NCBI GenBank assembly: GCA_902827205.1 | Contig: LR792634.1 | Location: 930,001 to 994,000 of the forward strand | DNA from: Methanocaldococcus lauensis | GTDB taxonomy: Archaea > AGJL01 > Methanococci > Methanococcales > Methanocaldococcaceae | DNA length: 64,000 nt | Direction: 5' to 3' | Shown: piece by piece, positions 35,652-37,369 of the stretch | How the letters are laid out: every line of letters begins with the position of its first letter | Numbering within the stretch: position 1 is the first letter of the stretch | Program-made: the position numbers and the translations under genes | Notes under the pieces: generated by a model | Database searches by the model: none | The model's input: only the letters and a program-made list of their open reading frames with translations | Told to the model about the DNA's origin: nothing

Positions 35652-35896
35652 TTTTATTATTATAAAACTCTTTTTATAGCGTTCCAGATTAAATAACTTT
35701 GAGGTTTTAACGTACCTTCAATAGGATCTAAGAATAAAATATTCTCTTTAACTAAATACATATACACTGGAGGAGGAATTTCTCTTTTTGAGATTTCATA
35801 TTTATTTTTAAACATTTTTAATGCTTTAATTATATCATCTTTTTTAACCTCTATGACTTTATTTCTTATTTCTATTTTTGGCTCAATATAATCTAA

Positions 35897-35928
35897 AATA
35901 TCTAAAAACATCAATATCTAAAAACATC
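35897..35928. repeat. 16-bp tandem duplication inside the ATPase pseudogene
   Basis: The plus-strand unit AATATCTAAAAACATC occurs twice back to back (35897-35912 and 35913-35928). Removing one copy restores the frame and gives the natural reading [12 protein letters not shown] on the minus strand. Confidence 0.92.
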
Positions 35929-36487
35929 TCCAACTTCGAAATCTCATCCTTAAGCATAAAATTTAAAATATCATCTAATTTATTATACCTCATCTCATCA
36001 ATTACGCTATAAATGTCTGAAGGTTTCCCACCAACATAATAATATATTTTCTCTTTCTCTTCATTTGAGAGTTTTTTATTTAAAATATTTTTTGCTAAGA
36101 AGTCCATAAACCTTAAGGCAGTTCTTTATCAAAATCATCCACTAAAATATATTTAGCTCTACCGTCAAGCATTGCCTCATTATATACTTTCTCAATAAAC
36201 AAACTATCAGAAGATATACATAAGACACGGCAGAGATGTAATTCTTTAGTTAAATTAATAAAGTAATTAAATAGTTCATAAATTAAAAATCCATTAATTT
36301 TTAACTCCAACAAAACATTAGTAATATACTTGAAGACATTTTTAGGGCTTTTTTTATCTAATAACTCATTTAAAGTATTTTTTGGGATTGGAATTCCACT
36401 AACAACTGGTATGTCTTTAATAATCCCTTTGATTATATCTAATGGTTTCTTATCTTCACTATATTCTTCAAACAAAACATCTACAAT

Positions 36488-36535
36488 TAGACGAAAACTG
36501 AAAGTTTTCGTTGCTCGAAGCTTCGCTTCGAAATT
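36488..36535. repeat. double palindrome inserted in the ATPase gene
   Basis: Two adjacent hairpins: CGAAAACT (36492-36499) with AGTTTTCG (36503-36510), and TCGAAG (36515-36520) with CTTCGA (36526-36531). The block interrupts the ATPase reading between KYE and VDVLFEEY and changes the frame. Its compact, paired form and clean edges suggest an inserted palindromic element, not drift. Confidence 0.7.
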
Positions 36536-36748
36536 CATATTTAGAGATAAAAATCCCTCTGAGATTTATATAAAATACTACATACTTATTTTTGTCTAAC
36601 ATATTATTAATTATTTCAATAATTAGAACTGTTTTACCTGAATTTATAGGTCCAAAAATAAAATAAATGTCATCTGGCTCTCTATTTATTATATTAATAA
36701 ATTCTTCTATCTCTTTTTCCCTATCAAAGAATTTCATTGTATTCACCA

Positions 36749-37369
36749 TTAAAATGAGTTTAGTGTATTCTTTTTATCCAACACATTATGTATTATAGTT
36801 ATACAATGATTAGCATGCAACTCTAAAGGAGATAATGAAATTTTTTTAGCTTTAATCTTATCTAAAAATTTCTCATCCTCTTCTCCAATTCCTATGTGGT
36901 CTCCAAGTATAAAAACAGGATTTTTTATATCAACATTTTCTACATCCTCCCCATTTTTGTGCAAATAGTAAATATTCTTTCCTTCATTGATTTTTTCTAA
37001 AATTAAATCTCTAAATCCTAATCTCTTTACATAAATTCCGGGTGTTGATAAAATCCAATTATTTTTTTCATCTTCATCAGTTTCTTCAAATTTTTTTAGA
37101 GCCTTTTTTATAAATATGGCTATATTTCTTTCATCAGGTGAAACCTTCTTTAATTCACTACCAACAAACTTTATACAAACTGGTGGATTTGGTTGCCCAT
37201 ACAATACTGCATAAAAAATTACATCCCTCCTTATATCATGAGATAAAAAGAAGGCATCGCTAACACATCTACACAATAAATCCAATCTTCCACAACTTCC
37301 TGGTAAATCTTTTAAATTTATGTTTGAGGATGTTATTGTTTTATTTGCCTTAAATATAAATTCTCTCAT
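36749..37369 (-). CDS. trmY: tRNA pseudouridine(54) N1-methyltransferase
   Basis: 206-residue SPOUT-class methyltransferase that makes m1-pseudouridine at tRNA position 54. Family signatures: [26 protein letters not shown] near residues 22-45, [10 protein letters not shown] in the middle and the knotted SAM site [15 protein letters not shown] near 152-166, then [15 protein letters not shown]. Length is normal. Its ATG overlaps the stop of the upstream PhoU-like gene by four bases, and its own end touches the ATPase pseudogene start. Confidence 0.92.

Follow-up and report, generated by a model that had tools for sequence, protein, structure and literature searches.

A 45-bp Double-Hairpin Unit in an Interrupted Methanocaldococcus ATPase Gene Is Very Probably a Copy of a Mobile Palindromic Repeat of Methanococcales

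Introduction

Suyama, Lathe and Bork reportedly described 141 repeat elements in three groups in 2005; three copies of one group, MJRE2, are said to lie in coding regions, and MJRE elements reportedly average about 100 bp. The publication of palindromic repeats with coding potential in Methanocaldococcus jannaschii (Suyama et al. 2005) is cited in PMC2229807 and PMC2996958. Rickettsia palindromic elements (RPEs) and their Wolbachia equivalents are selfish palindromes whose hosts are protein genes unrelated to one another, with the reading frame kept (PMC2229807, PMC10969869). An earlier note on the DNA considered here held that such elements were not known from methanogens; the 2005 publication contradicts this, and, as coding palindromes have already been published from M. 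jannaschii, the copy described below is classed with a known kind.

Results

The window, i.e., the whole 64,000-bp stretch of DNA analysed, covers C1:930001-994000 of a 1,479,331-bp Methanocaldococcus-like chromosome (genome G000). A double-hairpin unit (Table 1) lies here in a minus-strand gene for an MJ1010-type ATPase (Pfam PF01637 and PF21690), extending from 36749 to 35660. The earlier note was right about two adjacent hairpins, but gave arms of 8 and 6 bp, and each is in fact one pair longer: hairpin 2 has perfect 9-bp arms (36491-36499/36503-36511) and hairpin 1 perfect 7-bp arms (36515-36521/36525-36531), both around 3-nt loops. A 3-nt linker joins hairpin 1 to hairpin 2, and a CTAAT-like end completes the unit. 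By chance, no copy of such a double hairpin would be expected in the window. The folding energy of the 45-nt unit is -12.7 to -13 kcal/mol, a z score of about -4 that none of the shuffles equalled, and a covariance model built from seven copies (R1) scores 36486..36530 at 74.5 bits. A search of Rfam gave nothing relevant around 36486-36530.

Table 1. Coordinates of the double-hairpin unit, of the ATPase gene parts around it and of two units at a shared site in another ATPase family.
Feature	Position	Strand	Sequence or remark	Basis
Double-hairpin unit, 45 bp	36486..36530, or 36487-36531 (one-base ambiguity)	-	CGAAGCGAAGCTTCGAGCAACGAAAACTTTCAGTTTTCGTCTAAT in coding orientation	Filled/empty alignments
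Hairpin 1	36515..36531	-	TCGAAGC-GAA-GCTTCGA; outer pair borrows one flanking base	Pairing and covariation
Hairpin 2	36491..36511	-	ACGAAAACT-TTC-AGTTTTCGT	Pairing and covariation
Unit 3' end	36486..36490	-	CTAAT, kept in close copies	
ATPase N-terminal part, Walker A region	36531..36749	-	2 bp fewer than in any other filled gene, at ~36532-36537	
ATPase continuation, different frame	36113..36485	-	~20 codons including the Walker B motif absent at ~36298	
ATPase C-terminal remains	35660..36107	-	Two more open frames, 35883-36107 and 35660-35914	
IYFN/IYFNGG-site units	L204 (G041:C1:1412400-1414100) and L223 (G015:C26)			

As the earlier note had seen, the ATPase coding sequence is split, with a different frame on each side (ORFs 36468-36749 and 36113-36538, both on the minus strand), and the edges are sharp, closely related empty genes delimiting an exact 45-bp unit. 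Its claim that the insertion had changed the frame did not hold: 45 bp are 15 codons, and the unit lies in frame in the intact ATPases of two relatives, G008 and G001 (open frames of 386 and 392 codons). The C-terminus of the filled ATPase of G008 is identical to PDB 3bjo, named MJ1010, and G008 is therefore M. jannaschii. In the window, the frame is broken because 2 bp that all the other filled genes possess are missing directly beside the unit. In addition to its broken frames, the window gene lacks the Walker B stretch, which is present in all intact paralogues. The window gene is a pseudogene; it lost the 2 bp adjoining the unit, either at the insertion event or later, and decayed.

At the position of the window hairpins, an intact paralogue from the same genome shows KYEDF-IEVLFEEY. 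On the DNA level, the filled site reads GATTT[CGAAGC...CTAAT]TATTGA and the empty one GATTTTATAGA, a difference of 45 bp with one base ambiguous. The earlier note took intact paralogues containing the palindrome in frame to speak against insertion. Such paralogues were found, but since there are empty genes as well, they do not count against an insertion. In a tree of 21 ATPases, the window gene has as its sister G041:798131 (support 100/98), which comes from the same species and is empty, and filled genes are dispersed over the tree in a way that forces at least three changes. An AlphaFold model of MJ1010 (17 sequences) had pLDDT below 50 in the insert region and was uninformative on surface exposure.

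A search for further copies, as suggested in the earlier note, found a second one in the same genome, at C1:665656-665704, in frame within cobN (PF02514). Its peptide in the cobN frame, RSFASSNENRRFSSN, differs from that in the ATPase frame, EAKLRATKTFGFRL. cobN was located in all 13 remaining Methanocaldococcus genomes, and the site was empty, with an exact 45-bp gap, in the 11 that entered the DNA alignment. These include G041, which is of the same species as G000, i.e., filled and empty states of this site occur within a single species. A net gain of 45 bp over empty homologues was seen in cobN, the MJ1010-type ATPase, a DUF234 ATPase (G041:1044558), an intein of an M. jannaschii helicase and hemC (G027). 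Further in-frame copies reside in mtnA (G014), in a polyferredoxin gene (G027), at the start of a HAD-type phosphatase gene (G011), in another ATPase of G015 (the homologue in G001 being empty) and in an IS transposase gene of G002 and G023. With further copies and empty sites, insertion is demonstrated, and the notion of a small palindromic element that enters genes much as the Rickettsia elements do was well founded. Stops are lacking in four of the unit's six frames, and all four are in use among the gene copies: +0 in cobN and the DUF234 gene, +1 in the ATPase, -0 in the HAD phosphatase and -1 in the IS transposase. An insertion of 45 bp therefore adds 15 residues, and the gene stays open.

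Several of these hosts deserve separate comment. The Hel308-like helicase intein (L210, G008 ~C1:1064378) represents a mobile element hosting a mobile repeat; an assignment of the copy at 1064378 to lysyl-tRNA synthetase was wrong, the protein being an intein-bearing helicase whose intein holds the element. Another ATPase family carries two different units in frame in nearly the same position (following IYFN in one case and IYFNGG in the other) in two genera. The polyferredoxin gene L235 (G027:C1:956415) appears to have two or more tandem units between its ferredoxin domains. The rve-type IS transposase gene (L134, L135 and L136 in G002; L228 in G023) bears two copies of a related unit, and L135 resembles a deletion through recombination between them. 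The same rve-type IS was found in another genus, so that an IS could carry the unit between species.

Within Methanocaldococcus, R1 matched 12 of the 14 genomes, with 15 matches in G000 and 35 in M. jannaschii. Across the order Methanococcales, matches occurred in 20 of the 36 genomes, reaching 69 in one genome. The G002 copies were left out of the model, the MAFFT alignment of all copies having misplaced their hairpin 1. Across 96 copies, in an alignment fitted to the model and hence leaning towards the structure, 97.5% of pair cells were standard, 14 of the 16 pairs had changed on both sides, and 262 cells were compensatory vs. 75 in shuffles, while slid structures dropped to 39-51%. The exact hairpin-2 pattern, searched in all genome contigs, gave one related match, in Methanothermococcus (L047); matches in Olleya and Aquibacillus were taken as chance, and viral contigs gave none.

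Many intergenic copies are enclosed in a longer palindrome. Much of the wider family is more diverged and longer, and the 45-bp unit may be only one of its branches. The second hairpin of a unit may itself contain a further, nested unit (G006:431155 vs. G008:13497, at a TnpB end; G011:700783 vs. G008:191194). The 3' ends of some tnpB genes contain a related two-hairpin motif (L142 at G008:C1:12000-15000, L178, L234, L240 and G000:C1:539527), in whose second hairpin another unit is nested in frame, at the same place, in M. jannaschii and others.

Loops of the GNA/GNNA class (model strand, stems of at least five pairs) made up 49 of the 71 first loops and 51 of the 79 second ones, counts that come from non-independent copies and from a model whose training loops were mostly GAA. 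When a G-C pair closes them, such loops form the class of extraordinarily stable DNA mini-hairpins, GCGAAGC melting at 78 degrees C (PMC4686876). Between some otherwise near-identical copies, the loop is inverted, GAA vs. TTC on the same stem, as in the window ATPase vs. G041:391826 and in the ATPases of G008 vs. G001. Such swaps would be expected if hairpin tips were occasionally inverted. Together, loop class and loop inversion support, but do not prove, a life as single-stranded hairpins.

Discussion

Overall, we consider it very probable that the unit in the window belongs to a mobile palindromic DNA repeat found in Methanococcales and is akin to the coding palindromic elements of M. jannaschii; it would move non-autonomously as DNA. 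From presence and absence among the compared sequences we infer movement. The unit was inserted whole, and with polarity, both into genes that are unrelated and into further copies of the unit; there is no consistent target duplication, one shared base (T) being the rule and up to two occurring in cobN. The left flanks at six compared sites (GATAT, GATTT, GCTTT, GCAAT, GAAAT and GATTT) fit GNWWT, and those in mtnA and hemC do not. Such a picture would suit a non-autonomous unit moving as DNA, most likely by way of a single-stranded hairpin intermediate, with cutting and joining after an A/T-rich GNWWT-like site; selection would remove the insertions that break genes.

What might mobilise the unit is a more speculative matter. 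A resident Y1/RAYT transposase was rejected as the mobiliser by reason of its absence from the window genome: the Y1 domain (PF01797) was absent from G000, G041 and G008, and among the 14 Methanocaldococcus genomes it was detected only in G001 and G011, the G011 copy being broken. It is tempting to suppose that single-strand transposition of the IS200/IS605 type (Y1) is nevertheless at work, with the CTAAT end as the right cleavage site and relatives at TnpB 3' ends as the source. Hairpins near both ends, the lack of target duplication, the six fitting flanks, the Y1 genes of G001 and G011 and a 62-bit R1 match in a TnpB 3' end, in the same peptide frame (VEAKLPVRKTEGFPLMV beside FEAKLRATKTEGFRLII), all point this way. 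However, the three genomes devoid of the Y1 domain and the deviating mtnA and hemC flanks do not, and the TnpB tails might merely host an insertion; we regard this route as possible but rather doubtful. A different scenario, which we would call unlikely and put forward tentatively, is that the double hairpin, at a fixed size of 45 bp, is still moving in Methanococcales, in some hosts with no transposase gene, through host processing of very stable single-strand hairpins, and continues to feed 15-residue peptides into CobN, HemC, MtnA and similarly conserved enzymes. Local errors can make palindromes, so the hairpins could in principle have formed in place, or been left by a simple deletion, with no mobile element involved; the second copy in an unrelated gene, the many relatives and the exact empty sites refute such an origin, and its probability is negligible. 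Double hairpins in coding sequence also look like the translational bypass elements of yeast mitochondria (a case mentioned in PMC6649704), which would leave the unit untranslated. Every intact copy compared is exactly 45 bp longer than its empty counterpart, in frame and free of stops, which makes bypass unnecessary and, in our opinion, highly improbable.

How one ATPase site came to be filled repeatedly is a more balanced question. Recombination among paralogous ATPase genes (gene conversion), in place of repeated insertion, would explain why filled genes are scattered over the tree with the element at the identical base in all of them, and the gene family is large and located differently in each genome. 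However, no other filled ATPase remains in the window genome as a donor, and the inner branches of the tree are poorly supported. Moreover, on both sides the flanks of the window copy are nearer to the empty sister (87-88%) than to filled genes (73-84%), and a converted tract would therefore need to be short. We hold the chances of gene conversion to be about even; the site may have been refilled by either process, and the data favour neither.

The order-wide spread, the presence and absence within a species, the exact 45-bp unit, the self-nesting and the loop class could not be found in the papers searched, and the repeated filling of one ATPase site is also counted as new here. Coding palindromes thus form a family across an archaeal order, in conserved metabolic genes included, and are not confined to Rickettsia or to one M. 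jannaschii genome. As a copy varies within one species and the empty sites have precise edges, movement becomes testable in the archaeal case; the same applies to the reason for the single size and the four open frames, and to the effect of a sudden 15-residue insertion on a hyperthermophile enzyme.

Finally, we would like to compare the unit with known systems. The double-hairpin elements of fungal and algal mitochondria are likewise small mobile two-hairpin units, but they are organellar, GC-rich and mostly non-coding. REP/RAYT systems and palindromic MITEs derived from IS200/IS605 (e.g., haloarchaeal PATEs) share hairpin units and the lack of a clear target duplication. Unlike REPs, our unit has no GTAG tetranucleotide at the hairpin foot and no RAYT/Y1 enzyme in the window genome; unlike MITEs, it has neither terminal inverted repeats nor a consistent target site duplication, consisting of two separate hairpins with ends (CGAAGC and CTAAT) that are not mutually inverted. 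RPEs resemble it in their in-frame insertion into unrelated genes, a likeness by description in which no sequence relation is expected. The RPEs are alphaproteobacterial and about 105-150 bp long, the unit archaeal and 45 bp long. The MJRE elements differ in their reported average length of about 100 bp, the unit seemingly being an inner module of longer intergenic elements. Compared by description, however, they come from the same genus, are palindromic and multi-copy, as the unit is in M. jannaschii, where MJ1010 carries the 45-bp form and copies lie inside open frames (MJ1010, the helicase intein and TnpB) without breaking them.
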